In this document: piece by piece, positions 3,827 to 51,606 of the stretch
Position numbering within the stretch: position 1 is the first letter of the stretch
How the letters are laid out: each line of letters begins with the position of its first letter
Source: Pelagicoccus sp. SDUM812003
GTDB lineage: Bacteria; Verrucomicrobiota; Verrucomicrobiia; Opitutales; Opitutaceae
Direction: 5' to 3'
NCBI RefSeq assembly: GCF_031127815.1
Contig: NZ_JARXHY010000001.1
Location: forward strand, 62,001 to 126,000
DNA length: 64,000 nt
Translations under genes and position numbers: made by a program
The notes under the pieces: generated by a model
What the model was told of the DNA's origin: nothing
The model's input: the letters and a program-made list of their open reading frames with translations, nothing else
Database searches by the model: none

Positions 3827-3854
3827 TTGACTAAAAATTGTCGATTGTATGCAA
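3827..3854 (+). promoter_or_regulatory. Promoter/operator of GH50 gene: TTGACT box plus TTGTATGCAA palindrome
   Basis: TTGACT at 3827-3832 is followed after 12 bp by TTGTATGCAA at 3845-3854, about 75 bp before the GH50 start codon. The same palindrome recurs upstream of many units in this window at a similar distance from a TTGAC-type box. The placement over the spacer and -10 area would suit a repressor. Confidence 0.65.
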
Positions 3855-3927
3855 AAAAGAAAGCCCTTCGGTTGGGCTCTCCTGATCTGCTCGTTTCAAA
3901 GAGCTTCCCCAAAGAACTCCACAACCT

Positions 3928-6132
3928 ATGATAAAAGATACCCCCTTTCTAGTGTTATCCCTCGCCTTGGGCTTGTCGTTGCAAGGACCTAATCTCGGCA
4001 CTGAAGTCTGTGCCCAAACGGATGTACCTGACAGCCTGACGCTCTTTGATTTCGACGAAGGCTTTGATCTTGGGTCTGTCGAAAGCAACGACGCCAATGC
4101 CAGTCTGATTGGCGAGGGTGACCGGCAGCTTCTGGTGGAAACGGGGATTCGCTCTGGCGCGCCTGGAGTAACGCTCAAGCGCTCCTCGGGAAGCTGGGAT
4201 CTCGATCCCTATTATCATGTGAAGATGGACATCAGGAATGTTGGCGAGCATCCGGCGAAGATCATCTTCAAGGTGGGCGATCCGGAGGACGACATGGAAG
4301 GTTGGCAGATGGAGATTCGGTTCGATTTGAAGCCGGGCGAAACCAAGACGGTGGCCGACGATATTTCCACCTCGCCATGGCGCTTTGCCGAACCGCTTGA
4401 GTTGGTGGCGATGCGGGCCGCGCCCGGTTCGGCGAAGACCGATTTGAGCGCTATCGATCAGGTTCGGATTTCCATCGTGTATCCAGATGCTAGGCACAAG
4501 CTTGTGATCGACAACATTCGGGCAACGAATCCGGTGCGTTGGGTTGGTTCCGAGGGTTTTCTTCCGTTTGTCGATCGCTTTGGGCAATACAAGCATGCCG
4601 ATTGGCCAGGAAAAGTCTATTCCAGTGACGACCTTCGTCAATTGGCCCGAGAGGAAGATCGCCGCTTGGCGAGCCATCCCGGGCCATCGCATTTTTGTGG
4701 CTTTGGTGGCTGGAAGGAGGGACCTCAGCTGGAAGCGACCGGGTTCTTCAGGACAGAGAAGCTCGACGGCGCTTGGTGGCTTGTTGATCCTGACGGACAC
4801 CTTTTTTGGTCGCATGGCGTTTGTTGCGTAGATCCATGGGCCTCGTCCACGGGAGTGACAGACCGCGAGGGCTATTTCGAATGGATTCCAGAGAAGGATT
4901 CTCGTTTCGGGCAGTTCTTTGGCAAGGCTCACGGAGCCGCTCATGGATTCTACAAAGGGAGAGGCGAAAGGGATACGTACAGCTTCCATGCTTCGAACTT
5001 GTTTCGAAAGTTTGGCGAAAACTGGCGCGAGGGCTTCAGGCGCGTGGCGCATGCCCGTCTGCGTAGCTGGGGAATGAATACGGCAGGCGTCGCTTCGGAT
5101 CGCGAATTCTGCCAGGACGGCGTCACTCCGTACACGGAAACGGTTTGGGTGAGGGGAACGCGTAAGATAGAGGCCTCGCAGGGATATTGGGGTCCGTTTC
5201 ACGATGTGTTCGATCCCAGCTTCCGTCGGCAGGTTCGTGCTGCGCTGGCTGGTCGGGAGCGGGCAGCGAACGATTCCTGGTGTCTTGGCTTCTTCGTAGA
5301 AAACGAACTTTCGTGGGGCGCTGAAGGATCGCTGGCCGAGGCGGCGCTTGCGAGCCCGGCCGATCAACCCGCCAAGCTGGAATTCGTCTCCGACCTCAGA
5401 GCCAAGTACGCCGACATTCAGTCGCTCAATGCCGTTTGGTCTACTGAATATGCTTCTTGGCAGGCGTTGCTTCAGAGCACCGTACGGCCGGATCGGACCA
5501 AGGCGTGGGATGACTTGTCTGCATTCTATGCGAGGATCGTAGAGACCTATTTCTCGACGGTCCGCGAGGAAATGAAAGCGGTTGCTCCCAACATCATGTA
5601 TTTGGGATGTCGATTGGCTTGGGCGAACAGCGAGACGGTGATCCGGACGGCGGCCAAGTACCAGGATGTGATGAGCATGAACCGGTATGATTACAATGTT
5701 ACGAACGTCGGTTTTCCCCATGGTGTGGACAAACCCATCTTGATCGGGGAATTCCACTTTGGATCGCTGGATCGTGGTTCGCTCCATCCAGGCGTGACTG
5801 TAGCGAATAGCCAGGCAGAGCGAGCGAAGTTCTACAAGGTCTATGTCGAAAGCGCATTGCTCAATCCTTACATCGTCGGTACGCACTGGTTTCAATACGG
5901 TGACCAGAATCCAACTGGGCGTGGCGACGGGGAGAACTATAACGTCGGGCTCGTCGATGTTGCTGACAATCCTTTTCCCGAATTGACGGAAAGCGTGACC
6001 GATGTGGGCGCTCGCATGTACGGTTTGCGTTTTTCGGCCGCACAAGAGAATCGGTTGGTCCAGCCCGAGGTATCGCTGGAGGTGAACGCGATGCAGGTGG
6101 ACGAAGACATGCACAAGCGATCCAATCTGTAG
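3928..6132 (+). CDS. Glycoside hydrolase family 50-like beta-agarase, secreted
   Basis: A 734-residue protein with a signal peptide (cleavage likely after EVCAQ, about residue 30), an N-terminal beta-sandwich carbohydrate-binding-like domain (about 35-200) and a GH50-type TIM barrel. The GH50-like landmarks are WWLVDPDGHLFWSHG near residue 290, FFVENELSWG with probable acid/base E460, and LIGEFHFGSLDRG with probable nucleophile E608. Family members release neoagarobiose or neoagarotetraose from agarose. A paralogue lies at 42624-44909 on the other strand. It appears to be a single-gene unit with its own operator. The GH50 assignment rests on motif memory and on the context of GH117 and GH16 genes. 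Confidence 0.85.
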   Translation: MIKDTPFLVLSLALGLSLQGPNLGTEVCAQTDVPDSLTLFDFDEGFDLGSVESNDANASLIGEGDRQLLVETGIRSGAPGVTLKRSSGSWDLDPYYHVKMDIRNVGEHPAKIIFKVGDPEDDMEGWQMEIRFDLKPGETKTVADDISTSPWRFAEPLELVAMRAAPGSAKTDLSAIDQVRISIVYPDARHKLVIDNIRATNPVRWVGSEGFLPFVDRFGQYKHADWPGKVYSSDDLRQLAREEDRRLASHPGPSHFCGFGGWKEGPQLEATGFFRTEKLDGAWWLVDPDGHLFWSHGVCCVDPWASSTGVTDREGYFEWIPEKDSRFGQFFGKAHGAAHGFYKGRGERDTYSFHASNLFRKFGENWREGFRRVAHARLRSWGMNTAGVASDREFCQDGVTPYTETVWVRGTRKIEASQGYWGPFHDVFDPSFRRQVRAALAGRERAANDSWCLGFFVENELSWGAEGSLAEAALASPADQPAKLEFVSDLRAKYADIQSLNAVWSTEYASWQALLQSTVRPDRTKAWDDLSAFYARIVETYFSTVREEMKAVAPNIMYLGCRLAWANSETVIRTAAKYQDVMSMNRYDYNVTNVGFPHGVDKPILIGEFHFGSLDRGSLHPGVTVANSQAERAKFYKVYVESALLNPYIVGTHWFQYGDQNPTGRGDGENYNVGLVDVADNPFPELTESVTDVGARMYGLRFSAAQENRLVQPEVSLEVNAMQVDEDMHKRSNL

Positions 6133-9392: not shown

Positions 9393-10556
9393 CTACCAGT
9401 TGGTGACGGAGCCGTCAGCGCGTTTGAAATGGGGGACTTCGATGGGGGTGAAGGTCTGGTTGGCTAGCGCGTCCTCGTCGACTTCAATGCCGAGCCCAGG
9501 CGTGTCGCTGATCGGGTAGCGGTTCTGTTCTCGACGAGGCTGCAGCGGAAAGATCTTGGGGTCACAGAGGCCGAGGTCCTGAATGGGAGTGTTCACTTCC
9601 TCCAACCAGGAGACGTTGGAGCAGGCGGCGGCAAGATGAATGGTCGCAGCGGCGCAGATCGGCCCCAGGGGATTGTGTGGCATCAGATCGATATAGTGGG
9701 CTTCGGCCAAGGCGGCTACTTTCATGCTCTCGGTCAAGCCGCCGACATTACAGACGTCGACTCGGGCGAATTGGGTCAGGCCGTTTTCTAGAAAAGGCAG
9801 AAACTGCCATTTGCTGGCGAATTCCTCGCCGATGGCGAAGGGGACATCGACCAATTGCCGCAGCGTGGCATAGGCCTTGGGATCCTCGCAGCGGATGGGT
9901 TCCTCGAGGAAATCCAGAGTGCCGATCGGCATGCGATGCAGGAAGGATACAGTTTCGGGCGTCGTAAGGCGATGGTGGTAGTCGAAGCCCAAGGTGGGCT
10001 CTTGTCCGACGTGTTGGCGCAGAGCTACGATGGATTTTGCGACGGCTGCGATGTTTTTTCGAGGGTCAAATGTTGTTTTAGCGTCTCCCATGGTCTGTTC
10101 GTTGACGTAGGTCAGTCGGAGACAGGTGAATCCCGCAGACAGCAAGGATTCCGCTCGTTCGATCAGTTGTAGGGTGTTGCCAAATGGGAGAGAAGCGAAG
10201 CATTCCACCCAGTCTCGCTGCCTGCCTCCCAGCAATTCGTAAACAGGAATGCCTAGGGCCTTGGCTTTAAGGTCGTAAAGGGCGATGTCGATGGCTGATT
10301 GGGCGGCAGCGAGCACTCGCCCACCTTCGAAGTATTGGCTTCGGTAGAGCTCCTGCCATATGGATCCGATGCTCCTTGGGTCTTTGCCAATGAGCCAGGG
10401 ACGAAAATGATCGATAGCCCCGGAAACCGCCATTTCGCGAGAGGTAAGGCCGGAAGCTCCCCAGCCGTAATAACCGGTGTCGCTTTCGATCTTGAGCAGG
10501 AGCTGGCTGCTGGCGCCGATACGGGAGGGAAAGGCTTTGATAGCCGAGATTTTCAT
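9393..10556 (-). CDS. Mandelate racemase/muconate lactonizing enzyme family; DgoD-type (galactonate) dehydratase
   Basis: A 387-residue enolase-superfamily enzyme expected to dehydrate a sugar acid to a 2-keto-3-deoxy acid in the cytoplasm. Metal ligands D192, E218 and E244 and the acid/base histidines H194 (FDYHHR) and H294 (MPHNPLGP) are all present. Their spacing equals that of E. coli galactonate dehydratase (D183, H185, E209, E235, H285), each shifted by nine. The C-terminus TPGLGIEVDED also matches that family. It diverges from the GH117 gene, whose products are galactose and 3,6-anhydrogalactose, so galactonate is a natural substrate; an anhydrogalactonate cycloisomerase role is an alternative that the His-His active site makes less likely. 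Confidence 0.8.
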   Translation of the reverse strand: MKISAIKAFPSRIGASSQLLLKIESDTGYYGWGASGLTSREMAVSGAIDHFRPWLIGKDPRSIGSIWQELYRSQYFEGGRVLAAAQSAIDIALYDLKAKALGIPVYELLGGRQRDWVECFASLPFGNTLQLIERAESLLSAGFTCLRLTYVNEQTMGDAKTTFDPRKNIAAVAKSIVALRQHVGQEPTLGFDYHHRLTTPETVSFLHRMPIGTLDFLEEPIRCEDPKAYATLRQLVDVPFAIGEEFASKWQFLPFLENGLTQFARVDVCNVGGLTESMKVAALAEAHYIDLMPHNPLGPICAAATIHLAAACSNVSWLEEVNTPIQDLGLCDPKIFPLQPRREQNRYPISDTPGLGIEVDEDALANQTFTPIEVPHFKRADGSVTNW

Positions 10557-10617: not shown

Positions 10618-10627
10618 TTGTGTACAA
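10618..10627. promoter_or_regulatory. Operator-like palindrome TTGTGTACAA between dehydratase and GH117 genes
   Basis: A perfect 10-bp palindrome matching the recurrent TTGYRTRCAA motif of this window. It lies in the 356-bp divergent intergenic region, 62 bp before the dehydratase start and 286 bp before the GH117 start. No good TTGAC box is seen at the usual distance. The rest of the region holds nothing else recognisable. Confidence 0.5.
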
Positions 10628-10912
10628 TCCTAATTCAACTAAAGGCTTTGACGAGTACAAAATCTGTGTCGTTGCGAAAACGTTGGATCGTATCGAGACG
10701 CCTTTTGCCGTCTTGCCCCGCTTGAATTTAGACCCGTATCGATTAGGATGAACCCCCTCGTATCCAGAAACGTAGATTTCGTTGCCGTGCGCGGCATCTG
10801 TATCGGAAGGGTGGACTGGTTAAGGGAAGCGAATCTGTGTGGGGCAGAGGCTTTGTATTCGTTTCGTCCCTTCACGCTTTGAATCGAGCAATTTTTCTAA
10901 AGGAGATCTGTC

Positions 10913-11980
10913 ATGAGCAAAAAACTAAGCGCTGCGAGCCTGCGGGCCAAGAACTACGACAAGGGACCTGAATGGTACTGTGAAATTGTCAGCAAGCCAA
11001 TTACGGGAGATCTTGCGGAAGCGCGGGATGGGATGGTGCGGCGCGATCCGAGCGCAGTGATTGAAGTGGACGGCATCTACCATGTCTGGTACAGTAAGGG
11101 CGAGGGCGAGAGCTTCGGTTTCGGGTCGGGGGATCCTGACAAGAAGACCTTTCCGTGGGATCACTGCGAGGTCTGGCATGCGACCAGCAAGGACGGTTGG
11201 CATTGGGAAGAACAGGGCGTGGCGGTGCGGCGCGGGCCAACGGGAGCTTACGATGATCGAAGCGTATTCACTCCAGAAATACTGGCTCACGATGGAAAGT
11301 ACTATCTTGTCTATCAGGTAGTAACTTCGCCGTACACGAGACGTTCTTATGAAAATGTCTCAATGGCGATCGCAGATTCCCCTTATGGACCTTGGGCAAA
11401 AGTCGATGGACCAATCCTAAAGGCCGAAGCGGATGGCGTGTGGGATGGTGAAGCAGATAATCGATTTCTCGTGAAGTCAAAGGGCAGCTTTGATAGTCAT
11501 AAAGTCCACGATCCTTGTTTGATGTTTTTTCGGGGGAAGTTCTACCTCTACTATAAAGGTGAACCCATGGGGGAGGAGATGTTCATGGGAGGTCGAGAGA
11601 CCAAGTGGGGAGTCGCGATTGCAGATAAGATTGAAGGTCCGTATGTAAAGAGTGAGTACAACCCTATCTCTAACTCTGGCCACGAAATCTGCGTTTGGCA
11701 CTATAATGGCGGTATTGCAGGGATGCTGACGACGGATGGGCCAGAAAGGAACACTCTTCAGTGGTCTCGAGACGGCGTCAATTTCGAGATCATGGCATAC
11801 ATAAAAGGAGCCCCAGAGGCCAATGGACTTTTCAGGACATCTGACCATGACAAAGGTCCGTTGGAGGGGCTAAGGTGGGGGTTGTGTCACGTCGTTGATG
11901 GTCAAAAAGGGTATTTGGAGCGCTTCGAAGTCGATGAAAGTCTGAAGTCGTTTTTCCTGTCCCGGGAGACATACGAGTAG
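10913..11980 (+). CDS. GH117 alpha-1,3-(3,6-anhydro)-L-galactosidase (neoagarobiose hydrolase)
   Basis: A 355-residue five-bladed propeller enzyme that splits neoagarobiose and short neoagarooligosaccharides into D-galactose and 3,6-anhydro-L-galactose, the last step of agarose breakdown. The family's key residues are in place: D45 in [11 protein letters not shown]200 in SHKVHDPCL and H257 in [24 protein letters not shown] and [13 protein letters not shown] are further hallmark blocks. No signal peptide, so cytoplasmic or dimeric as known homologues. AAGGAGAT precedes the ATG at good distance, fixing the start. Base composition drops from about 58% to about 47% GC near position 11270, inside the gene. 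A hairpin terminator follows. Confidence 0.92.
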
Positions 11981-12094: not shown

Positions 12095-12142
12095 TTTTGC
12101 ATGCAAAAAGATGTTGACCTAGGTAAAGTATATTGTATGCAA
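12095..12142 (+). promoter_or_regulatory. Tandem operators flanking a TTGACC box upstream of TonB receptor 1
   Basis: A 14-bp perfect palindrome TTTTGCATGCAAAA (12095-12108) lies just upstream of TTGACC (12114-12119). A second copy TTGTATGCAA (12133-12142) lies 13 bp downstream of that box. The two palindrome centres are 36 bp apart. The receptor start codon is about 300 bp further on, so the transcript would have a long leader (12143-12445) in which nothing else was recognised. Confidence 0.65.
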
Positions 12143-12445: not shown

Positions 12446-15430
12446 ATGAATGTAAACGCTCCAAACTATAATTCGAGCTTTCGAGATGGGACTAACCGTC
12501 GCTTTAGCTCTAGAGGAATCGCCGGTCTTGCTGTGGCTCTGTTGGCAAGCATTCCACTACAAGTGGCCTTAGGGCAGGACGAAGAGGAGGAGGAGGTCTT
12601 CACACTTTCTCCCTTCGAAGTGACAGCAGACGATGTACGCGGATATGAAGCTCAAAACACGCTTTCGGGCACTCGAATGAAAACATCCATGAAGGATGTT
12701 GGTGTGACTATGACAACGTTGACGGAGCAATTCATGGATGACTTGGCAGTTAGCGATACTAACGAAATGATTGCTTTCACTCCAGGATCTGAGAAGGAGA
12801 CTACGCAAGATGCTAGTCAAGGAGCGTCCACAGTTTATTGGGGCGACAATCCGCGAATTCGAGGAGTGCGGGTCGAAAATATCGTACGAAACCAGTTCCG
12901 AACGAACATAACTGCAGATGCTTACAACTCAGGCCGTTTCGAGTTTTCGCGGGGCGGAAACTCAATTCTTTTCGGGATAGGTAACCCAGCCGGCTTGGTA
13001 AATCGCTATACTAACGATGCCATTTTTGCGAATACCAATCTTTATCGCTTTCAGATTGATGACAATGAAGGGACCCGGCATGAACTTAACGTTAATCGTG
13101 AGATAATAGATGGCAAGTTGGCTGCACGTGTGGCTGTGTTATATGAAGAAGGCGAAAACTGGATCAAGCCTCTCTTCAACGACCAGAGTCGTTACTACGG
13201 CACTTTCACATTTACCCCCACTGAGAAACTTACGATCAAGTTTCGTGCTGAATCTTTTGATTGGGAGCGGTCTATTGCTTCCTACGGAATACATCAGGAT
13301 GCTGTGACTCCATTTCTCGATGCAGCAAAGGCTGCGGGGGAAACTCCTGAGGAGCATGCCATCGATCGCAGCCACTGGATTTGGATTGCTCCAGGCTCAG
13401 TTGGACCTGAGTTTCAGGATTGGGGCTACGGAGGTGTCAATACACTTGTTTTTGTGAACGATGGAGCCGGCTTTGATTTCGAGCCTCGTAACTGGATGAA
13501 TAAGGTCATAGGTGCGCCAAAGCAGGTAGCTGGAGATAGGAATGCTTCGCTGCCAACTGATTTCTTGCCACGTGACTTCAATATTTTTGGAAACTCAAAT
13601 TTCCAAGATTTTCAAGGGCACAATTTTCAGGGCGTTGTTCAGTACAAGGTGAATGACTATATCGATTTGGAGTTGGCTGCTAATGATGAGACAGTGAATT
13701 ACGACTTTATGATTAATTGGTCAGCGAATATGTTGCGAATCGATACGAGCGCAACGCTAGCCGACGGATCGCCCAACCCAAATGTTGGAAAGTATTTTGT
13801 TACTAACGATACGCAATGGCGTTATGATCAGGAACGCAATCTAGATAACTTGAGATTAACTGGAGCTTTTCGCTATGACTTCGCAGAGGCCTCAGACAAT
13901 CTACACTGGCTTGGTAGTCATAACCTGGCCCTACTGGGTGAACGGGCTAATTCCGAACAGCTATGGGATAGTTACTGGCTAGCGAATGTCACACCTGAGT
14001 CTACGCCGCTCCCGGCAATAAACGAACCTTGGCCGAGTGCTCCAAGAAATGGATGGAACGGTCAAAATTTAATAAAGGTGATCAACTACGTTGATCTTGA
14101 AACTCAAACCATATTCGGCCCTACGGATCCGCGCACGTTTCAGGAGTACGCGAACCAATATGATGGCATAAACGCTCAGTGGGTACCTTCTTTTAATTCT
14201 ATTAATGGAAGCACATCTGAAGAGAGGATAGACTCTTTTCTGGCCGTTCTACAGTCACGTTTTTGGGATGATCGCATCGTTACGACGTTCGGTTGGCGCG
14301 AAGACACTATTAATGCACGGATCGGGCAGATTGGCCAGGATCCCGATAAGCCGGATGGTTGGGCAGTGCTTGCAAAAGACGTGCCGAGAGATATCGAAAG
14401 ACCCGAATTGGATCCTGATACTTTCTCTAGAGGAGTTAACTTTCACGTGTTGCGAGAACGTGATTGGCTTAGCTATCTCACGCTGTACGCGAATCAGTCT
14501 ACAACGTTCAATGCGGACTCGACGGGAGTGTTGCCGAACAAAGACCGTGTCCCGAACACGACCGGAGATACCGTCGACTACGGGGTGAAATTCGGTCTTT
14601 TCGACAACAAGATTAATGGCGTGTTCACGGTGTTTGACGTGGCTCTTGAAAACGAAGCAGTTGTCAATCTTCCTTGGCAAGATTTGAGTATGATTGCTGA
14701 AGCACAGGGCCTCTCTGAGTTGTCGGGCTTGGATCCTTCGACCACTCGCGATATTCGTGATCTTGTTTCCGAGGGATGGGAGTTTCAGGTGAGTGCCAAC
14801 CTCACTCAGAATTGGAGAGCTATGCTAAGCTTCGACCATTTTGAGACCGAGTATTCTAATGTGGCACCGGTTACTCGCATGATTTTTGATCAGTATACTG
14901 ATGAGCTTCTGTCAAATCCGGATATTATTGTAAATCCAGGTGCTAATGAAGAATTGACGGCACAGCAGGTATACGATCGGTTTTACTTCTCGTATTTATC
15001 CGAGAAGGCACAGGAGGGGTCTCGGACCATGAACGAACGACGTTATAAAGGCGTTTTCGTTACTAGCTACGACATATACGAAGGAGCATTCAAGGGACTT
15101 GGATTCGGTACAGATGTGATTTGGCAGGACAAGCCATCTACTGGCTTTGGACTCCGCCAATTGGAAAATGGGACTTGGGTGCCTGATTCGGAGCATCCGT
15201 TCTTCGGTGAAGACCTACTCCGAGTAGGAGCACATATTCGTTATAGCAAACCAATATTTAACGACAAGATCGATTGGAAAATTCAGTTGAACGTGAGAAA
15301 CATCAACAATGTTGATCCGTATGTCGTTCGACATGGAGCAGTCACTAGTGCACCGACGACGCCCATCGCTTGGTACACTAATCGAGGCGAGCCTACTCAA
15401 TATATTCTAACGAATACTTTTGAATGGTAG
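12446..15430 (+). CDS. TonB-dependent outer-membrane receptor 1 (Opitutae type)
   Basis: A 994-residue outer-membrane importer, probably for algal oligosaccharides. It has a signal peptide (GLAVALLASIPLQVALGQ), an acidic stretch followed by the VFTLSPFEVTADD box typical of Opitutae receptors, a plug domain (about 65-200, with LSGTRMKTSMKDVG and FRTNITADAYNSGRFEFSRG), and a C-terminal 22-strand-type barrel ending in aromatic Trp (TNTFEW), as expected for barrel assembly. There is no SusD-like lipoprotein next to it. A similar receptor is encoded at 45100-48009. The substrate cannot be told from sequence; the two operator palindromes upstream tie it to the agarase genes. Confidence 0.92.
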   Translation: MNVNAPNYNSSFRDGTNRRFSSRGIAGLAVALLASIPLQVALGQDEEEEEVFTLSPFEVTADDVRGYEAQNTLSGTRMKTSMKDVGVTMTTLTEQFMDDLAVSDTNEMIAFTPGSEKETTQDASQGASTVYWGDNPRIRGVRVENIVRNQFRTNITADAYNSGRFEFSRGGNSILFGIGNPAGLVNRYTNDAIFANTNLYRFQIDDNEGTRHELNVNREIIDGKLAARVAVLYEEGENWIKPLFNDQSRYYGTFTFTPTEKLTIKFRAESFDWERSIASYGIHQDAVTPFLDAAKAAGETPEEHAIDRSHWIWIAPGSVGPEFQDWGYGGVNTLVFVNDGAGFDFEPRNWMNKVIGAPKQVAGDRNASLPTDFLPRDFNIFGNSNFQDFQGHNFQGVVQYKVNDYIDLELAANDETVNYDFMINWSANMLRIDTSATLADGSPNPNVGKYFVTNDTQWRYDQERNLDNLRLTGAFRYDFAEASDNLHWLGSHNLALLGERANSEQLWDSYWLANVTPESTPLPAINEPWPSAPRNGWNGQNLIKVINYVDLETQTIFGPTDPRTFQEYANQYDGINAQWVPSFNSINGSTSEERIDSFLAVLQSRFWDDRIVTTFGWREDTINARIGQIGQDPDKPDGWAVLAKDVPRDIERPELDPDTFSRGVNFHVLRERDWLSYLTLYANQSTTFNADSTGVLPNKDRVPNTTGDTVDYGVKFGLFDNKINGVFTVFDVALENEAVVNLPWQDLSMIAEAQGLSELSGLDPSTTRDIRDLVSEGWEFQVSANLTQNWRAMLSFDHFETEYSNVAPVTRMIFDQYTDELLSNPDIIVNPGANEELTAQQVYDRFYFSYLSEKAQEGSRTMNERRYKGVFVTSYDIYEGAFKGLGFGTDVIWQDKPSTGFGLRQLENGTWVPDSEHPFFGEDLLRVGAHIRYSKPIFNDKIDWKIQLNVRNINNVDPYVVRHGAVTSAPTTPIAWYTNRGEPTQYILTNTFEW

Positions 15431-16873: not shown

Positions 16874-18454
16874 CTAGGCCTTGTTGCTTAGTCGTTCGAT
16901 TTCCGCTTCTATTTCTTCGATGCTTTTCCCTTTGGTTTCAGGGGTGAGCTTGGCTAGAGCGATCATACCGAGGAGGCAGAAGGTGCCGTAGATGATGAAG
17001 GTGACGGTCGAGCCGAACCATTCGATTTCAAGAGGAAAAAGCTGTTGTACTACGATGCCGCCAAAGATAGTGGTGACCCAGGCGCAACCGGTGATGGCCA
17101 AGGCACGCACTTTAGTTGGAAATAGCTCGGAGAAAAGGATCCACAGTACGGGACCCGCGGAGAAGTTGAAAGCGCAGACGAATAGAACGATTCCAGCGAG
17201 AACGAGTACTGCGTTCATGGATACGCCATGTAGCATCACGGCGCTTTCCACTTGGTTGTAGACATCGGCTCCTACAGAATCTCTTATCGCTGATTTGAAG
17301 GTCATTTCGTTGTCGAAGACTTGGCCGATCAATTGGGAGAGCCCTGAGGGGTCGATTGATTGAGGGATCGCTTGTACGACCTCTGGCGTGACTGAATAGG
17401 TGGCGGATCCGAATCCGTAGGCGACCAGTAGCCATCCGGAGGCGCAGGCGGCCAGACCGCCAATAAGTATGATTCGTCGACCTATCTTGTCGATGACTAG
17501 AATCGCGAGGAGAGTGAAGAACATGCCCACCAGATTAATGATGAACTGGTCGAGGAGTTTGGTTTCGCCGCGACCGGCGTATTCAAAAATCTGTGGCATG
17601 AAAGATTGTAGCGGATTCATGCCGGTCCAAGGTTGTACCCAGGCTAGGATGAGGCCAACGGCTAGGGCGACCCATAGCTTCCGACTAAAGAGGAGTTTAG
17701 CTTGTTGGGCGTAGTTCAGGCTATGGTGGATGTCCTTGAGATTTCGCAAGATTTCGTCGAGCTGTTCCTGCACCTTATGGGCGGGTGTTATCTTGGCCAA
17801 AACGCTTCTTGCTTGTTCGGTCTTGTCGTTGAGGACGAGCCAGCGTGGGCTTTCTGGTATGGTCAGCAAGAGGAGGAACCAGATTATTGCGGGTAGAGTT
17901 TCGATACCGAGCATCCAACGCCAAGCAGTTTGGTCGTTCAGAAAGATTGCCGAAGCCCAGTCTACATTTGAATTTCCAATATCAGCGATGAGGTAATTCA
18001 ATCCCGACCCCGCAAAAATGCCTACTGCGATATTGAGCTGATTGGATCCGACTAGTTTTCCACGTATCTCGGGTGGAGCGATTTCACCGATGTACATAGA
18101 TGCTAGAGATAACGACGTGAATGCGAGGCCTCCGATAAGGCGGAAAAGAAATAGGGACCAAAACCCCCACGAGAGGGAGGAACCTATTGCAGAGATCGTG
18201 TAGAGTGCTGCGATGACCAGAAGGGTCTTCTTACGGCCGATGCGATCGCAAACCCATCCAGCGAAGGCGAGAGCTGCCAGCGCTCCCCAGCCCGGACCTG
18301 ACGCAATAAGACCTTTTTGAGCGGCATTGAGGCCAAATTGAATTTCGGTGTAATCGAAGGTGCCCGCGATGAGAACTAGGTCGAGGCCGAATACGAGTCC
18401 GCCGATTGCGACGATGAGCGAGAATGCGAAGGCCTTCTTGTTTGGGTGTGACAT
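16874..18454 (-). CDS. MFS sugar transporter, sugar-porter family
   Basis: A 526-residue inner-membrane permease of the major facilitator superfamily, sugar-porter type, with 12 predicted membrane segments. Signatures are DRIGRKK in the loop between helices 2 and 3, PESPRWL after helix 6, DKIGRR in the matching second-half loop and PETKGKSIEEIE after the last helix. An enlarged loop of about 60 residues (VTPEVVQAIPQSIDPSG onwards) interrupts the second half. It would carry a monosaccharide released by the glycosidases. It is transcribed alone from a promoter with the TTGCATACAA operator about 100 bp upstream. Confidence 0.9.
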   Translation of the reverse strand: MSHPNKKAFAFSLIVAIGGLVFGLDLVLIAGTFDYTEIQFGLNAAQKGLIASGPGWGALAALAFAGWVCDRIGRKKTLLVIAALYTISAIGSSLSWGFWSLFLFRLIGGLAFTSLSLASMYIGEIAPPEIRGKLVGSNQLNIAVGIFAGSGLNYLIADIGNSNVDWASAIFLNDQTAWRWMLGIETLPAIIWFLLLLTIPESPRWLVLNDKTEQARSVLAKITPAHKVQEQLDEILRNLKDIHHSLNYAQQAKLLFSRKLWVALAVGLILAWVQPWTGMNPLQSFMPQIFEYAGRGETKLLDQFIINLVGMFFTLLAILVIDKIGRRIILIGGLAACASGWLLVAYGFGSATYSVTPEVVQAIPQSIDPSGLSQLIGQVFDNEMTFKSAIRDSVGADVYNQVESAVMLHGVSMNAVLVLAGIVLFVCAFNFSAGPVLWILFSELFPTKVRALAITGCAWVTTIFGGIVVQQLFPLEIEWFGSTVTFIIYGTFCLLGMIALAKLTPETKGKSIEEIEAEIERLSNKA

Positions 18455-18550: not shown

Positions 18551-18575
18551 TTGTATGCAAAAAAACGACAGTCAA
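18551..18575 (-). promoter_or_regulatory. Promoter/operator of MFS transporter gene
   Basis: On the minus strand TTGACT (18575-18570) is followed after 9 bp by TTGCATACAA (18560-18551). This repeats the arrangement seen before the GH50 and TonB receptor genes. The MFS start codon is 97 bp downstream. Confidence 0.65.
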
Positions 18576-18709
18576 CAGCCAACCCCCGCTTGTTTCCCCA
18601 GGATTATGCAGGGCTTTCAGATGAAGCTCAGGGTCGTCGACGAAGTCGCGGGGCCTGATGTCAGCAACGGGAGAAGGGTGCGTTATCAAGAAGGGGGGCT
18701 CTCCAATTA

Positions 18710-31134: not shown

Positions 31135-31679
31135 GTTGCAAACGATTCCCCAGCCGGACAGCTCTGACGCTGAAGAATGTGCAGAAACATTCGGGAAAGC
31201 GGGTGCTGGAAGAATTCGTCGTAGTGTCTAGCTACGGTCCTATCGTACTCACTCATCTATCCTTTATCGATCAGATGTTGCCGACGCAAGGCGGTTTGCC
31301 CCGAGTCAATGCCGGCCTCATAGAGGCCAGAAGAGAGAAATTGGTGTATCTCCAAAGAAGCTAGCTTACAGGGTAACGCTGACCGCTTGTTGATAATCCA
31401 ATTACCTCGGGGGACACTGTAAGATTGTTCACGCTGTCAAAACTGAGAAACAGGAAAATTCCGGACCTAGAAATGAGGTAAAATGTATGCAAAACTCAAA
31501 ACATAATGTACAGGCGTAGGTTTGCTGGTCGATGAAATGCTGACTATCAAATCACTGAGTAACTCGGTTTCACTTGCTCGGGACCTCCCTCATAAATAAA
31601 CTAGGAAGGGCATTGTGGCGATGAAAAGTCTTTGCTCGGTCTCCTCTGTCATAAAATTTTACCTTCGGTTTTTTATCCC
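31135..31679. other. Intergenic region before chemotaxis receptor, with one operator-like site
   Basis: About 545 bp without a recognisable gene. ATGTATGCAA at 31483-31492 matches the locus palindrome at nine of ten positions and lies about 190 bp before the chemoreceptor start. No TTGAC-type box is seen at the usual distance, so the site is only a candidate. Confidence 0.4.
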
Positions 31680-40070: not shown

Positions 40071-40106
40071 GGCCACAGGATAATGCTCGCAAAGGTAGGG
40101 TTGGTG

Positions 40107-42623: not shown

Positions 42624-44909
42624 TTAATCCCCGTATTTGTTCTGGTACAGGTTGCGGTTGAGCTTTTTGGCTGCATCCACCATTTCGGGATAGGGTACGT
42701 CGGCGATGGTGACAAAGCCAACATTGTAGTTCTCGCCGTCGTGGGCCCGGCCGGTGAGCGGGGAGTCGATGTACTGGAACCAATGGGCTCCGACGAAGTA
42801 AGGGTTCTCCAATACGCTTTCCATGTACTCGGTGTACATTTCCGCCCGGTCCTTCTGGTCGGCGGCCTCGATAATGCCTGAATCAAAAACGCCGGAATCG
42901 CGGGCTCCGAAGTGGTATTCGCCGATGATGCAGGGAAGGTCCATATCTTTGAGGTGCTCCCACTTCTTCTTGCCCAGTCCCTCGCGGTAGTGATTGAAGC
43001 TCATGACGTCGACGTACTTCTTGGCTCCGGCCCGGACTTCCTTGCTCATGCCCCAGCTGGCGAAGCGAGCGCCCATGTAAAGGTGATTAGGCAGAACGTC
43101 CTCGAGGGCGTCGTGCACAATGCGGAAGTAGGTGCTAGCCAGATCCTCCTTGAGGATGGAGAAGTCGGCGATCATCTCTTCCGAGTGTTCCGTATCGCGG
43201 AGGTCGGCATTTTGCTCGAACGCTTTCCAAGAGGCGAAGTCGGTGGCCCACATTTGGTTGAGCGCTCCGATTTGTGGATACTTCTTCTTGAGTATTTTGA
43301 CAAAAGCCTGCTTGGCCGGGCTATCGGCTAGGGGTTGACGCAGGGCGTCGAGAACTATGCCATAGGTGTCTTCGAGGCCCCAGCTCATTTCGTTGTCGAC
43401 GAAGACGCCGATGCACCAGGGGCTATTGAGCACTTCGTCGGCTATTACCATGGTGGTGTACTTGGCTCGGCGTTCGAATTCAGGGTCGTAGGGATCGGGG
43501 ATCGGTCCCCAGTAGTCTGCTCCTGAATACAGGCGCTTGAAGTCGCCGATGATCCAGCCGTTGGCGAAGTAGGGAAAACGCTTGGCGTGGTAGAACTCGG
43601 GCGCGACCCAGTTGCCGAAGGAGGTGAAGCCCCAATCGATCATGCGGTCGAGCGTGATGTCGCGCCACTTCTGCAGGTAGGAGCCCGGGAAGGTTTCGCC
43701 GTAGCGGCGTTCCAAGTTGGCTTGATAGAAGCTGAAGGTCTCGCCGTGGGGAACTGGCCCCTTGTGCGTGGATCGGCGGTAGCTGTAGTGGTTGGCTAGC
43801 TCGCTGTCGTATTCCGGCAGTTCGACGAACATCTTGTGTCGCGTTTTGTCGATGATGTAGCGGGTTTGGCGTACCTTGTCGGAGACGCTGACGATGCCGA
43901 CCGAGTCTTCTGGCGTGACGTCTTCAGGATCGCGGTAGCGAACGGAGTCGTCGCGGAAGTCGACGCCGGTGAAGGTGGATGTATTCGCCATACGGATATT
44001 GGCGATGCCGGAGGAGAAGAAGATGTAGCCGTCGGGATCGATCAGAGCCCATTGTCCTTTGTATTTGTGGGTACGGAAGTGGCCCGTCGCTTCGAACTTG
44101 GGGCCGTCTTTCCAGCCGCCCCAAGAGCTGCGGTCCTGCATGGGCTTTGATACGGCGAGCGCTCGCATCTCGGCGTCGGCTAGTTCCTTGAGGTGGCCTT
44201 CGTTGGTGACGTTGTACTTGATATCACGCTTAGCGTTTTGTCCGAATTCATCTACGATATCGACTAGGAAATCGGGATCGGTTTTGGGACTGGAAACGAA
44301 ACGCAGGTTATCGATCACGACCGACTTATCGTGAATGATACTTTGAGTGCCGATTTTGAGCGACTTCACCTTTGAAAAGTCGACTGCGTATTTGTGTCCT
44401 CTCACGATCATGCGCGTCGCGTCGAGCGCGAAGGGATCGGGATCGTCGCGCAGGCCGTAGTCTTCGCCGAGGTGTTCGCTTTTCAGTTCGAAGTAGTAGC
44501 TACCCGAACTGCGAGCGGGGATTCCTACCGCTCGGCGGATATTATGCCCCTCGGCGTTTGTGACAGTGATGGCGAGGAATACTGAACGATCGCTGGGATT
44601 GTATGCGTCGTAGCGCAGATGGAAATCGCCGAGGCTGGTGGTGTCCCAGGGCTGGGCGGGAGTGATTTCGAAGCCGGCGAAATCGGTATCCACCTCGAAG
44701 TCGACCTGAAGGGCCTTTTTTCCGTCGCTCACGCCTTTGCCCGAGACGAGCTTGATCGTGGCATTTTCGGCCTTTGGATCAAGGCCGGCATCCGTCTTTT
44801 CGAAGGAGGTGATGGGGATTTCCCCAGCGGAGTTGGCAGCGCCAGCAGCGAGAAACGTGAGGACGCTAGCCCATTTCGATGGCGATACAGTAATTTTTCT
44901 TTTCTTCAT
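42624..44909 (-). CDS. Glycoside hydrolase family 50 beta-agarase-like, secreted (second copy)
   Basis: A 761-residue paralogue of the 3928-6132 product: signal peptide (ASVLTFLAAGAANSAG), N-terminal CBM-like beta sandwich (about 30-195), then the GH50 barrel. VDEFGQNAKRDIKYNV opens the catalytic part, WALIDPDGYIFFSSGIAN follows, FVDNEMSWG carries probable acid/base E507 and IIGEYHFGARDSG probable nucleophile E664. WFQYIDSPLTGRAHDGENYN near the end is also shared with the paralogue. It probably makes neoagarooligosaccharides outside the cytoplasm. It lies 190 bp downstream of TonB receptor 2 on the same strand, so secretion and uptake are likely co-expressed. Confidence 0.9.
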   Translation of the reverse strand: MKKRKITVSPSKWASVLTFLAAGAANSAGEIPITSFEKTDAGLDPKAENATIKLVSGKGVSDGKKALQVDFEVDTDFAGFEITPAQPWDTTSLGDFHLRYDAYNPSDRSVFLAITVTNAEGHNIRRAVGIPARSSGSYYFELKSEHLGEDYGLRDDPDPFALDATRMIVRGHKYAVDFSKVKSLKIGTQSIIHDKSVVIDNLRFVSSPKTDPDFLVDIVDEFGQNAKRDIKYNVTNEGHLKELADAEMRALAVSKPMQDRSSWGGWKDGPKFEATGHFRTHKYKGQWALIDPDGYIFFSSGIANIRMANTSTFTGVDFRDDSVRYRDPEDVTPEDSVGIVSVSDKVRQTRYIIDKTRHKMFVELPEYDSELANHYSYRRSTHKGPVPHGETFSFYQANLERRYGETFPGSYLQKWRDITLDRMIDWGFTSFGNWVAPEFYHAKRFPYFANGWIIGDFKRLYSGADYWGPIPDPYDPEFERRAKYTTMVIADEVLNSPWCIGVFVDNEMSWGLEDTYGIVLDALRQPLADSPAKQAFVKILKKKYPQIGALNQMWATDFASWKAFEQNADLRDTEHSEEMIADFSILKEDLASTYFRIVHDALEDVLPNHLYMGARFASWGMSKEVRAGAKKYVDVMSFNHYREGLGKKKWEHLKDMDLPCIIGEYHFGARDSGVFDSGIIEAADQKDRAEMYTEYMESVLENPYFVGAHWFQYIDSPLTGRAHDGENYNVGFVTIADVPYPEMVDAAKKLNRNLYQNKYGD

Positions 44910-45099: not shown

Positions 45100-48009
45100 T
45101 TACCAACGGAAGGTGTTGGTGAGCACCAAGGTCTGCGGGTTGCCTCTGCTGTAGGTCTGCACGATGGGAGTCGTGGGTGCGGAGGCAGCTACAGTGTGTC
45201 GGGTGACGAATGGGTCCTCGTCGCCGATATTGTTGATGTTTAGCTGAACTTTCCAATCTACACTGTCCTTCAGGATCTTGCGCTCGTAGGAGGCGTGTAG
45301 ACCAACGTTAAAGGAGTCCTCTCCGAAGAAGGGGTTGTCTGCATCGACCACAAGTCCAAGTTCTGGGTCTTCGCGGAACGCAAAGCCGGTGGCTGGCTTG
45401 TCGCGCCAGATCGCGTTGCCACCGAAACTAATGCCTTTCATCGCTCCGTCTGAAAAGGAGTAGCTGGTCAAGAGAGTGGACTTGTACTGGCGTTCGTTGT
45501 TCTTGTAACCGCCGACTTGAGCGAGTTGAAGTGCGAGATCGGTCAGCATTTGGTCGTAGAGTTCGCCGACGGTGATCTCCTCTTCGCGATCGGGTACGAT
45601 GACAGCTGCGTTGGACTGGAAGGTGGGGCCGTACTCATCGATCAGGTCGAGAGTTACGGGCACGACATTCGAATCGAACGTTTTGTAGTGATCGACTCCG
45701 AACATGATCCGCCAATTGCGGGTGATGTTTCCTGTCAGTTGGAATTCCCAGCCCTCGGATTTGAGGTCTTGGGTATCCGAAACCTGAGCGATGTCGTGGT
45801 ATTCGTTGATGCCAACTGCACCGAACAGGTCGTCCAGGGCGAACCAGACAGGACGCCAAGAGACGGATGCGGTCGAGTTTTTTACGTCCATGTCGAAGAT
45901 GGTAAATACTCCGCTGATTTTTCCATCCATAAGGCCGAATCGGAAACCAAAGTCTTCCGTCTCGCCTGTCTTTGCGGGTAGGGTGCTATTGTCTGGCCTG
46001 AGGTTGAAGTTGGAGGCAGCGAATGAGTCCGCTCGATTGAAGAAGAGTGAGAAGTGATCGATGGGGCCCGCGTTCTCGATAGCGTGAAATACGATGCCTT
46101 GATTCGCTGTGTTGGGCTTTGCCCCGGAATTCAAGGTATCGATCGCGTAACCAATTTCCCGAGCAGTAAATCGGACTTCTTCTCCCCCTGTGTCAGGCGC
46201 AGGGGAGGTACTGTATTGATAGATTTCGTCTTGGCGCCAACCAAGGGTAGGCACAATACGATCGTCCCAGAAGCGACCTTGCCAGACGAAGAGGGCAGAG
46301 TCGATTTCGGTTCTGTTGTTGGTGATGCCGCTGCCATTGATTCCGTTTTGCCAGCTGTAGTTGTTTCCTGGTACTGAGTTGAGCATGCTCTGAAAATCGC
46401 GACTCCAGGTCGGCCCCGAGAGCTCCTTATTCTCCAAGTCGACGTAAGTGATGACGCGTCCAAGGGTGGCGCTTTCGTCGGCCGCTGCCGTTCCTTCTGG
46501 GATGAGGCGCAGTACGTCCCAGTAGAACTCGTCGGTGTTCTGTTCGAGCATTGCCACAAAGTCATGTTTGCCGAGCCAGGCGAACCGGTCGTTCTCAGCG
46601 AAATCGTGCCGGACCGATCCGGACAGGCGCGCCCCTCGCAGGTAGCGATCCTGTTTCAGGCGGAAGCTTGGAGTCGCTAAGGCGAAATAATCGCCGAAGT
46701 GTGGATTCTCTGTGATCCCGTCGTCGAGGGTTGTGTTGGCGTCGACGAAGAGGTTGCTGTTGCCGGCTGCGATGAAGTCATAGAGCATGAACTCGTCGTT
46801 GTAGGCGAACTCGAGGTTTACTTTTTCGCTGGCCCGGTACTGGACAACGCCTTGGTAATTGCGTCCGGAGAAGTATTGCGACCCAGCAGTTCCGAAGAAG
46901 TTGAAGTCTAGTGGGGCGAATTCCAAAGGCAGTGACGCGGCCGAGCCGTTGATCAGCCGTGTAATGTCACCTTGGGCGAAATTTCGCAGGTTGATCATGC
47001 GTCCTGAACCATCATTGACAAAGGCGACTTGGTTGACGCTCGTCATCCGGGCAGTTCCCGATGGGTAGGACTCGGCGGGGATGTCTTCGCTTGCTGAAAT
47101 ATCGACTCCCGGGCGTCCGGCTGCGATCCAAGCTGAGACACGATCGCTGCCCACGGAGGGGTCCACGGCGGCTCGGTCCCAAGTCATGTGTTCGGTTCGG
47201 AACTTGACGGATAGCTTGTCGTTCGGCGTGTAGTTAATTGCCGAGTATATGCGGCGTTGGTCTTGGAAGCCCGGTTCTATCCAGTGGTCTTGCTCGTCGC
47301 TGAGCAGATCGATTCGAGCAGAGAGAACATCTTCAATGAGTACGCGGTTCAGTCCGATGCTGGCACGTAGCGAACCGTGCTCGTCGATGCGGATTTCGGC
47401 CTCGTTGGAATTGGAAAAAGTGGCGTCCTTAGTGGTTCGGTTTACCAATCCGGCCGGTTCTCGTGTTACTCCGAAAAGCACAGCGTTGGGGCCGCGGGAA
47501 ATTTCGAAACGTGAAGCGTTGTAGGTGTCGGAGGGGATATTGGAACGAAACTGGTTGCGTACAATGTTCTCGACTTGGACACCGCGGAAGATCGTGTTGT
47601 CGCCCCAGAATTGAGAGCGGGCGTTGCCTCCTCCGAATTGGGTGTCGCTTCGTTCGGCTCCTGGTGTGTAGATGAGCATGTCATTGACGCTCGATGCTGC
47701 GGTGTCATCCCAGAACTGCTCGGTTAGGATCGACATGGTGGTCGCTAGGTCCTTGACCGCAGTGTTGAGTCGAGTGCCGGAGAGCGTGTTTTCCGCGACG
47801 TATCCGGAATCGTTGGACGAGTTGACTTCGAAGGGAGAGAGCTCGAATATTTCCTCTTTTTTGTTTTCGCTTTCTTGTCCGTGTCCGGCCATAGCGAGGT
47901 TCGACATCAGGATTGCGAGAGCGAAGCGGTAGGTTGTCGATCCGCGTTTGCGAGCATTGTTCTCGCGAGGAGTTGCAGCGCAAGCGCTGGCTTTGGGTTG
48001 CTTGTTCAT
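45100..48009 (-). CDS. TonB-dependent outer-membrane receptor 2 (Opitutae type)
   Basis: A 969-residue outer-membrane importer related to receptor 1. It has a signal peptide (RFALAILMSNLAMAGHG), the IFELSPFEVNSSND box, a plug domain (LSGTRLNTAVKDLATTMSIL; FRSNIPSDTYNASRFEISRG) and a barrel ending TNTFRW with the terminal aromatic residue. LTGNITRNWRIMFGVDHYKT and similar strands align with receptor 1 near its C-terminus. The GH50 gene downstream makes agar oligosaccharides its likely cargo. Expression probably starts at the TTGACT/TTGTATGCAA promoter about 210 bp upstream. No SusD-type partner is encoded. Confidence 0.92.
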   Translation of the reverse strand: MNKQPKASACAATPRENNARKRGSTTYRFALAILMSNLAMAGHGQESENKKEEIFELSPFEVNSSNDSGYVAENTLSGTRLNTAVKDLATTMSILTEQFWDDTAASSVNDMLIYTPGAERSDTQFGGGNARSQFWGDNTIFRGVQVENIVRNQFRSNIPSDTYNASRFEISRGPNAVLFGVTREPAGLVNRTTKDATFSNSNEAEIRIDEHGSLRASIGLNRVLIEDVLSARIDLLSDEQDHWIEPGFQDQRRIYSAINYTPNDKLSVKFRTEHMTWDRAAVDPSVGSDRVSAWIAAGRPGVDISASEDIPAESYPSGTARMTSVNQVAFVNDGSGRMINLRNFAQGDITRLINGSAASLPLEFAPLDFNFFGTAGSQYFSGRNYQGVVQYRASEKVNLEFAYNDEFMLYDFIAAGNSNLFVDANTTLDDGITENPHFGDYFALATPSFRLKQDRYLRGARLSGSVRHDFAENDRFAWLGKHDFVAMLEQNTDEFYWDVLRLIPEGTAAADESATLGRVITYVDLENKELSGPTWSRDFQSMLNSVPGNNYSWQNGINGSGITNNRTEIDSALFVWQGRFWDDRIVPTLGWRQDEIYQYSTSPAPDTGGEEVRFTAREIGYAIDTLNSGAKPNTANQGIVFHAIENAGPIDHFSLFFNRADSFAASNFNLRPDNSTLPAKTGETEDFGFRFGLMDGKISGVFTIFDMDVKNSTASVSWRPVWFALDDLFGAVGINEYHDIAQVSDTQDLKSEGWEFQLTGNITRNWRIMFGVDHYKTFDSNVVPVTLDLIDEYGPTFQSNAAVIVPDREEEITVGELYDQMLTDLALQLAQVGGYKNNERQYKSTLLTSYSFSDGAMKGISFGGNAIWRDKPATGFAFREDPELGLVVDADNPFFGEDSFNVGLHASYERKILKDSVDWKVQLNINNIGDEDPFVTRHTVAASAPTTPIVQTYSRGNPQTLVLTNTFRW

Positions 48010-48220: not shown

Positions 48221-48246
48221 TTGCATACAAAATGCAATAAAGTCAA
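48221..48246 (-). promoter_or_regulatory. Promoter/operator of TonB receptor 2
   Basis: On the minus strand TTGACT (48246-48241), a 10-bp gap, then TTGTATGCAA (48230-48221). The start codon follows about 210 bp later, again leaving a long leader as for receptor 1. Confidence 0.65.
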
Positions 48247-48322: not shown

Positions 48323-49102
48323 CTAGCTTGGCCAGTTACCACCATCCACGTTGAGGCATTGCTGTGTGATATAATCAGCATCAGAGGAAGCGAGAAATAC
48401 GGCGGCCGCTGCGACATCCTCTGGTTGTTCGACTCGCCCCAGGGGGATTGTGGAAATGGCTTTGCGGATTGGTTCTCCTTCTGCAACTCCGGATAGTAGG
48501 GCGAATTGCTTGTCGAGAGCCTCCCACAGGGGGGTGTCCACCACCCCTGGAGCGATGGCGTTCACATTGATCTTGTGGGGTGCTAGGGCTAGGGCGATGG
48601 ACTGGGTCATGCTGATGACGGCAGCCTTTGTAGCGCAGTAAGCCATGACCAGTGATTCTCCGCGTCTTCCGGCTTGGGAAGCGAGATTGATTATTTTGCC
48701 GCAGCGTTTAGCTTCGATCAAATATTGGGCTACCTCCTGACAGCAGATCATGACGCTCTGGCAGTTCACCCTAAAGAGTCGATCAAAGTCCGCTTCTGTA
48801 GTCTCGAGGAAAGGAATGATTTTTCCAGTTCCTGCGTTGTTTACCAAAATATCGATACGACCGAAGGCGGCCAATCCTTGTTCGACTGCTTCCCGAACGG
48901 CTTGTCGGTTGGTGACGTCAGCCTCGACCGCGATCGCCTTGCCTTGTCGAGAAACAATATCCTGAGCGACGGTATTCGCGCCATCGATATCGATGTCGAC
49001 AATGACAACACCTGCACCTTCGGCCGCGAATCTTTGGCAAATGGCTCGGCCGATACCGACTGCGCCTCCAGTAACGATAGCTGTTTTTCCTTGGAGTCTC
49101 AT
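48323..49102 (-). CDS. SDR-family polyol dehydrogenase (sorbitol/galactitol dehydrogenase-like)
   Basis: A 259-residue short-chain dehydrogenase: NAD-binding TGGAVGIG (about 11-18), NNAG, and the catalytic Tyr-Lys pair in AYCATKAAV. The C-terminal third (PLWEALDKQF, IPLGRVEQPEDV, DADYITQQCLNVDGGNW) resembles SmoS-type sorbitol and galactitol 2-dehydrogenases more than FabG. It would interconvert a polyol and a ketose, or a similar sugar alcohol, with NAD. The ATG at 49102 is preferred over upstream in-frame starts because the protein then begins MRLQGKTAIVTGG. It stands alone, about 310 bp after a TTGCATGCAA site. Confidence 0.85.
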   Translation of the reverse strand: MRLQGKTAIVTGGAVGIGRAICQRFAAEGAGVVIVDIDIDGANTVAQDIVSRQGKAIAVEADVTNRQAVREAVEQGLAAFGRIDILVNNAGTGKIIPFLETTEADFDRLFRVNCQSVMICCQEVAQYLIEAKRCGKIINLASQAGRRGESLVMAYCATKAAVISMTQSIALALAPHKINVNAIAPGVVDTPLWEALDKQFALLSGVAEGEPIRKAISTIPLGRVEQPEDVAAAAVFLASSDADYITQQCLNVDGGNWPS

Positions 49103-49419
49103 TGTAAAGTTGGTCGTTGTTTTCGTTGGGAATGGCGATTCCTGGATATGGATAAGGCACCTGACTCTATCGATTTTCACGTTGGGCGTTCGAGTCTTGC
49201 CAGCAGGTGATATTGCAGATTTCGGCTGGCCAACACTCTATGAATCAGGGGATGGGACCGTTTTTCCATTCATCACAAAGTTCAGTTCTAGGGAATCCGA
49301 GTAATAATGGGGAGTTTTCCTTCGTTTTAGGCGTTTCCTTTCTCCGGAGGAAATCGGGGGGTCGTGAAATCGGACGTATGATGGTTAGCAATGATTTTAT
49401 GCGCTAGGCAATTCTGAAA

Positions 49420-49429: not shown

Positions 49430-49518
49430 AGGACAATATTTAGGTCTCCCTGCTCATCCGTTCCTTTCCTAGGAATGAATGAATGTTGTGGTGCAAAGAG
49501 TGATTTGGAATTGGAAAA

Positions 49519-49576: not shown

Positions 49577-49672
49577 GGTCACGCCGTATATCTAGGCAAG
49601 AACCCATTTCAGGGCAGCCTATGCAACGCTCGGGCAGGTGGGGAAACGACGTGAGGAGCCGCTGGGACGGAT

Positions 49673-51496: not shown

Positions 51497-51596
51497 TCGA
51501 TGGGCGGGGTGAACGTTTAGGTAAATGAGGGAATGGGTGCTGAGAGCAAGACGTAGGCGAGGCGTGGAACTCGTGCTAAAGAGCGGCATTTAAATA

Positions 51597-51606
51597 TTGA
51601 ATGCAA
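51597..51606. promoter_or_regulatory. Operator-like palindrome TTGAATGCAA between DUF5060 and GH105 genes
   Basis: Nine of ten match to the locus palindrome in a divergent region; 101 bp before the DUF5060 start and 120 bp before the GH105 start. Its presence argues that coding of the GH105 protein starts downstream, not at the in-frame TTG that overlaps it. Confidence 0.45.

Follow-up and report, generated by a model that had tools for sequence, protein, structure and literature searches.

Which protein reads the short palindrome TTGYRTRCAA that recurs between genes along a stretch of DNA from Pelagicoccus sp. SDUM812003 (Opitutaceae), and what do the genes behind it have in common? The window analysed here comprises 64,000 nucleotides of contig NZ_JARXHY010000001.1 (contig C1; the window is C1:62001-126000) of a genome of 5.75 Mb in 88 contigs, and site coordinates without a contig prefix follow window numbering. 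A first-pass annotation had read the palindrome as one operator through which a single repressor-like protein, perhaps of the GntR or LacI type, links agar and uronate genes. We consider it highly probable that a GntR/FCD regulator, the product of C1:154621-155229, has TTGYRTRCAA as its operator, most commonly in the perfectly palindromic form TTGYATRCAA, and that this operator marks about a dozen genes of a local agar/porphyran regulon under repression, with an acid of the anhydrogalactose pathway as the probable inducer. Judged by sequence comparison, the motif is clustered, is conserved before orthologous genes and tracks this GntR protein; binding, the sign of regulation and the inducer are what we infer.

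All eight exact matches and both near-matches reported in the first-pass annotation were found where it had placed them. They are listed here with the genes behind them; bit scores refer to a matrix built from the eight exact sites, which span 16.8-26.3 bits.

3845..3854, TTGTATGCAA: operator 83 bp before the start of a GH50-like gene, 3928-6132 (+); a -35-like TTGACT stands at 3827, 12 bp upstream of the operator
10618..10627, TTGTGTACAA: operator between the divergent enolase-superfamily gene 9393-10556 (-) and GH117 gene 10913-11980 (+)
12097..12106, TTGCATGCAA: operator O1, upstream of the TonB receptor gene 12446-15430 (+)
12133..12142, TTGTATGCAA: operator O2, upstream of the same receptor gene
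18551..18560: operator upstream of the sugar transporter gene 16874-18454 (-)
31483..31492, ATGTATGCAA: near-match upstream of the chemoreceptor (MCP) gene 31632-33638 (+); 18.0 bits
40125..40134, TTGCGTGCAA: operator between the divergent gene 35826-40076 (-) and PhoD-like gene 40220-42577 (+)
48221..48230: operator upstream of the TonB receptor gene 45100-48009 (-); 26.3 bits
49420..49429, TTGCATGCAA: operator upstream of the SDR dehydrogenase gene 48323-49180 (-)
51597..51606, TTGAATGCAA: near-match at the start of the DUF5060 gene 49673-51589 (-); 20.5 bits

Fewer than one match had been expected by chance in the window, and 100 dinucleotide shuffles agree with that estimate, giving a mean of 0.53 strand-hits and a largest value of 4 against 15 observed. 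The eight exact sites are intergenic by the table of open reading frames (ORFs), if one disregards the short ORFs 3831-4178 (-) and 18555-19178 (+), each of which overlaps a longer gene. To say that they stand in front of most transcription units is to overstate a real pattern, as they occupy seven intergenic regions. A ninth exact match, at 47555, had been missed; it matches a single strand, falls within the coding frame of the TonB receptor (45100-48009, -) and scores a low 11.5 bits, and for these reasons is probably due to chance. No place of at least 9 bits was returned by the matrix scan between 51.6 kb and the end of the window.

Across the genome, TTGYRTRCAA has 22 forward and 19 reverse hits, compared with 6 and 10 for the same pattern read backward as a control. 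The hits fall in 25 distinct places, 17 of which lie in a cluster of 99 kb (C1:56291-155388) that includes the window and amounts to 1.7% of the genome, and 12 of the 16 perfect palindromes TTGYATRCAA lie in it as well (binomial P 1e-18, before correction for about 58 segments chosen post hoc). Within the cluster 15 of the 17 places read as intergenic, the exceptions being 47555 and C1:56291, although three of the 15 (C1:144310, 154531 and 154565) depend on gene starts set later than the longest ORF; outside it all eight places are inside ORFs by a simple longest-ORF call, which can include doubtful ORFs. This distribution does not bear out an equal frequency inside coding sequence, which the first-pass annotation would have counted against an operator. 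With the YATR centre held, the outer triplet TTG occurs 12 times in 100 kb, while the other 63 triplets average 0.24. The matrix finds 20 places of at least 12 bits in 164 kb, and 2 in the reversed sequence; the 20 comprise the eight training sites, three further places in the window (15898, 31483 and 51597) and nine outside it, eight of these nine being in the cluster.

The genome contains five GntR winged-helix matches, and the sole FCD-type protein among them is the one encoded at C1:154621-155229 (92621-93229 in window-style numbering), on the same contig and 28.6 kb past the end of the window; the other four comprise two with an aminotransferase domain and two short proteins. Both of its domains score well above their cut-offs, the GntR winged helix-turn-helix (PF00392) at 65.9 bits against 27 and the FCD effector domain (PF07729) at 67.3 bits against 24.3. 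Two palindromes stand 90 and 56 bp upstream of gntR, and a third lies between gntR and the next gene, at C1:155379. A GntR gene carrying the same site upstream had been predicted, and it does exist, outside the window and with two copies of the site. Of the two families named in advance, GntR fits and LacI does not: a LacI-type regulator of the palindrome was rejected, as the genome has 13 LacI matches and none of them is on contig C1. The earlier statement that the window encodes no such regulator holds for GntR and LacI proteins, but the window does encode an AraC-type regulator (22221-23195, -) and a sensor kinase (18710-22039, -).

The third of these palindromes precedes what is likely a 3,6-anhydro-L-galactose operon, with genes for a zinc dehydrogenase, a KduD-like SDR (331.5 bits, slightly below the cut-off of 338.85), an aldehyde dehydrogenase and a cycloisomerase-like protein. 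The aldehyde dehydrogenase matches 6j75 (catalogued as aldehyde dehydrogenase A, and presumably an anhydrogalactose dehydrogenase) at 2.3e-171, and another protein matches the 3,6-anhydro-L-galactonate cycloisomerase 5xd7 at 3.1e-169; the two genes, putatively for anhydrogalactose dehydrogenase and anhydrogalactonate cycloisomerase, are adjacent, as expected of an operon. A two-enzyme dehydrogenase/cycloisomerase route for anhydrogalactose is given for Vibrio sp. EJY3 in an excerpt of PMC5698469. On the other side of gntR lie genes for an IclR-type regulator, a PfkB kinase and a KDPG-type aldolase and, further on, GalK and GalT.

Relatives of the regulator were found in five of 252 family genomes, at 54-77% identity (designated G190, G006, G005, G007 and G147). 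A scan of named genomes returned two loci, at 75% identity in an Opitutaceae metagenome-assembled genome (MAG) and at 30% in an alphaproteobacterial MAG; a 372-genome sample of the order yielded no further member of the six-regulator clade described below, and only 33-39% matches outside the family. Of all 43 palindromes in the five relatives, 21 lie within 5 kb of an ortholog (at least 45% identity) of a cluster gene (10 of 27 in G190, 5 of 6 in G147, 3 of 5 in G006, 2 of 3 in G005 and 1 of 2 in G007), and 18 sit between 60 bp inside and 450 bp before the aligned start of such an ortholog. None of 19 backward-read control places (16 in four of the relatives, 3 in the own genome and none in G006) is near a cluster ortholog. 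A site precedes the ortholog in at least one relative for the transporter, TonB receptor, GH117, GH50, PhoD-like and zinc-dehydrogenase genes; it stands, for example, 225 bp before the aligned start of a receptor 65% identical to that of 12446-15430 (+) in G190, 18 bp before that of a 71%-identical transporter (compare 16874-18454) in G005 and 226 bp before that of a 61%-identical PhoD-like gene (compare 40220-42577) in G147. Conservation upstream of orthologous genes, the absence of which the first-pass annotation would have taken against an operator, is thus found. When the gntR-dehydrogenase spacers of the own genome and G190 are aligned, GCTTTACA and GGATATTGTATGCAAT are kept while the rest of the alignment is patchy. 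In G006 two sites stand before gntR, and in G190 an exact one and a near one. No site cluster is seen in five same-genus genomes that lack a match to this GntR protein at E 1e-25; they have at most 3 palindromes per 100 kb, against 12 in the own genome. That one GntR-type protein links the genes at the sites is well supported by the distribution of sites, their conservation and the presence of sites before gntR itself.

How might this protein act? A TTGACN or TTTACA box lies 9-13 bp upstream of the palindrome at 7 of the 12 one-directional sites, a set that leaves out divergent and coding sites, compared with 1.7% of 20,000 random 25-mers, and the five -35-like boxes reported in the first-pass annotation are all present at that distance. 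With this spacing the palindrome would fall between the -35 and -10 elements, and it is because of these boxes that we favour repression. A GntR/FCD dimer would bind the palindrome and block RNA polymerase, keeping the agar/porphyran genes, the anhydrogalactose operon and gntR itself repressed, until 3,6-anhydro-L-galactonate or 2-keto-3-deoxy-L-galactonate, which probably binds the FCD domain, releases the repressor. The neighbouring genes and the FCD domain are what point to such an inducer.

The same GntR protein could instead bind the palindrome as an activator or a mixed regulator, which we regard as unlikely. Several sites stand more than 200 bp from the next start (10618 before GH117; 12097, 12133 and 48221 before TonB receptors; 49420 before the SDR gene), and their promoters are unmapped, but the -35-like boxes, where seen, lie just upstream of the palindrome, and FCD-type GntR proteins are mostly repressors. 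Much less probable still is a role as reader of the palindrome for gntR's IclR-type neighbour (C1:153751-154491), which is distantly related to KdgR. Its gene immediately precedes gntR and adjoins those for the KDPG aldolase and the PfkB kinase, and G190 keeps both IclR and the sites; on the other hand, it has no match at E 1e-10 in G006, G005, G007 and G147, although the palindrome is retained upstream of orthologous genes there, while IclR orthologs of 63% and 62% identity occur in G188 and G189, which have no match to this GntR protein at E 1e-25 and no site cluster. This two-way separation of IclR and sites largely refutes the proposal. We give hardly any credence to the idea that the motif reflects composition or repetition instead, for instance as a mobile repeat or uptake-like sequence: another 10-mer, TTGGATACAA, is indeed strongly over-represented in the genome, but that sequence lies mostly in ORFs and is absent from the window, whereas the cluster sites are mostly intergenic, have little in common beyond the palindrome itself and a brief stretch beside it, and are found again in front of orthologous genes of other genera, a conservation in view of which such an explanation is disfavoured.

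If the GntR/FCD protein is the reader, its operator appears to differ from that of its nearest kin. A tree of 38 regulators places this clade's six members together on a single branch (support 100/99), apart from the 32 others. At one position of the recognition helix (SRSPIR), Ser is present in 6/6 of the clade, while the others have Gly (30/32) or Asn (2/32), and a different operator, TTGTNNACAA, stands within 200 bp upstream in 24 of the 32 outside regulators (counted by hand). A broader proposal, to which we assign about an even chance, is that the protein and its operator are a dedicated system for agar/anhydrogalactose catabolism in Verrucomicrobiota, at the centre of a 100-kb regulon and born in one GntR/FCD clade when its operator shifted from TTGTYRACAA to TTGYATRCAA and a recognition-helix Gly gave way to Ser; the direction of this change is one that we infer. 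Such a regulon would span hydrolases, TonB receptors and transporters as well as the central anhydrogalactose enzymes, with a chemoreceptor perhaps included; a porphyran-type cytochrome P450 is encoded in the same region.

Several observations weigh against these conclusions: (i) in G190 no more than the 10 of 27 palindromes counted above have a cluster ortholog nearby, and 11 control places occur in that genome, which makes many of its sites probable background (12 of 26 are in ORFs, three of them only via a TTG start at the site itself); (ii) the five same-genus genomes without the regulator have 7-10 palindromes each versus 1-10 control places, so that counts alone are not discriminating, and some other genera without it exceed the control; (iii) the sites before gntR in G005, G007 and G147 are degenerate (TTCCATACAA, TTTCATACAA); (iv) TTTACA was added to the set of -35 boxes after looking, and TTGACN alone is found at 4 of the 12 sites; (v) 8 of the 32 outside regulators lack TTGTNNACAA upstream, and because many of the 32 are near-copies they are not independent; and (vi) a Gly-bearing regulator in G335 carries TTGCATACAA upstream. 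A per-genome motif count over the 252 family genomes was dropped as proof in favour of clustering and gene neighbourhood, since some genomes without a match to this GntR protein are also above the control (15 vs 2 in G129, 17 vs 4 in G130 and 17 vs 4 in G195).

The substrate follows from the genes at the sites and in the cluster, the main ones being as follows.

9393..10556 (-): enolase-superfamily sugar-acid dehydratase-like protein; galactonate dehydratase model 257.6 of 311 bits, below the cut-off
10913..11980 (+): GH117 3,6-anhydro-alpha-L-galactosidase; 3r4y at E 1e-148, 4ak5 at 1e-133
12446..15430 (+): TonB-dependent receptor; Plug match slightly below the cut-off
16874..18454 (-): MFS sugar porter
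42624..44909 (-): GH50 beta-agarase; 4bq2 at E 3.5e-230
45100..48009 (-): TonB-dependent receptor; Plug domain above the cut-off
Behind site C1:128078, outside the window: MFS_2 transporter
Divergent from sites C1:134835/134930, outside the window: GH50-like (Agarase_CBM) gene and GH2 gene
Behind the GH2 gene, outside the window: GH86 agarase/porphyranase-like gene
At site C1:144310, outside the window: sulfatase

Operator 48221 perhaps also serves the GH50 gene behind its TonB receptor. One window protein at the sites is partly GH50-like, and the product of 35826-40076 (-) has FG-GAP repeats and a weak haloperoxidase match. The cluster also includes a GH3 gene and a cytochrome P450 gene, neither of which is immediately preceded by a site in this genome; the P450 resembles 6g5o, which we take to be the 6-O-methyl-galactose demethylase of porphyran users. 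Because of GH117, GH50, GH86 and the P450, agar and porphyran are the substrates that we propose rather than ulvan, and the ulvan/uronate link drawn in the first-pass annotation gives way to them, in view also of the anhydrogalactose pathway. The P450 gene is followed by a zinc dehydrogenase gene (C1:141722-144225), likely a pair for porphyran demethylation, and its ortholog in G006 (77%) adjoins the regulator gene. With the near-match before the methyl-accepting chemoreceptor gene, chemotaxis would come under the agar regulon.

The nearest precedent is a GntR-family repressor of alginate catabolism that Dudek et al. reportedly described in 2020 in Zobellia galactanivorans; going by the title of that work, it is likewise a GntR repressor for an algal polysaccharide, but it differs in its substrate, alginate, and in belonging to Bacteroidota. 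With its structural relatives among the FCD-type members of the GntR superfamily (7u5q, 3fms/3sxy and NanR 6on4) the present regulator has in common a GntR winged helix and an FCD domain above the Pfam cut-offs, a palindromic TTG-N4-CAA operator and the Asp...His and EH residues of the ligand pocket. It differs in its last pocket position, Asn here as in several sister clades and His in others. It also lies far below the cut-offs of all 17 NCBIfam families that it matches (PhnR, NanR, CsiR, LldR, UxuR, ExuR and others; best score phnR_burk, 72.3 of 271.5 bits; NanR, 61.3 of 260), and is therefore not one of those named regulators.

Other GntR genes are known beside algal polysaccharide genes: in extracts of the respective papers, one is annotated in a carrageenan/3,6-anhydro-D-galactose cluster of Pseudoalteromonas carrageenovora (PMC6262041), GNTR-like genes are noted in carrageenan clusters (PMC5698469), and AlgR of Saccharophagus degradans is a GntR gene beside alginate genes (PMC3124978). 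The P. carrageenovora gene and AlgR differ from the present case in concerning D-anhydrogalactose or alginate, and those extracts give no operator or regulon. DagR was likewise proposed as a repressor of agarolytic genes, in Streptomyces coelicolor, but it is of the LacI type and the paper was retracted for a fabricated figure (PMC9178413). CgrA of Z. galactanivorans also regulates a red-algal galactan system, carrageenan catabolism, but as an AraC-type positive regulator and for D-anhydrogalactose (excerpt of PMC5698469). Zobellia has two transcriptional regulators in its agar-induced anhydrogalactose cluster (excerpt of PMC5613140), and no agar regulator is described in the excerpted portions of PMC6262041, PMC11678492, PMC7953866, PMC5613140, PMC9296495 and PMC10880615. 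In the open-licence PMC literature, we found among the matches listed no description of this regulator, operator or motif, and none of a standing repressor with its operator for agar or porphyran, the proposed DagR having been retracted.

A local GntR regulon is of a sort already known for other sugars; what is distinctive here is how large the regulon is, that its substrate was unclaimed and that the operator changed between sister clades. Red seaweed has major stores of carbon in agar and porphyran, and the enzymes that break them down are well studied. With a defined operator the regulon could be recognised in sequences of uncultured Verrucomicrobiota; the operator also points to a metabolite that signals the presence of agar and offers a candidate set of inducible promoters. 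Since sister regulators fall into two operator classes, GntR specificity can be tested, and the paired operator and residue change, if true, would be a natural specificity switch open to single-residue swaps.

Some further observations stand apart. Genes for a CoA-transferase, a second IclR protein, a solute-binding protein, an enoyl-CoA hydratase and an aldehyde dehydrogenase lie at C1:56196-62826; some of their orthologs stand by anhydrogalactose genes in G190 and G147, and several sister-clade regulator genes adjoin distant CoA-transferase and enoyl-CoA-hydratase homologs. An excess of TTGYATRCAA over the control is seen in relatives such as G129, G130, G195-G198, G084 and G085, which have no match to the regulator at E 1e-25, and another regulator perhaps shares the sequence there. 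At C30:90700 of G006 (position 10700 of locus L093), another GntR protein, of 32% identity, has TTGTATACAA some 134 bp ahead of its aligned start. Finally, the 10-mer TTGGATACAA, which surfaced via a looser pattern, occurs 74 times (31 forward and 43 reverse) versus 1 for its backward control, scattered from C1 to C33, and 27 of 30 examined occurrences are in open frames of at least 150 codons, in all three frames; it is not part of the agar regulon and may represent a genome-wide signal, uptake-like or otherwise, or a product of codon bias.

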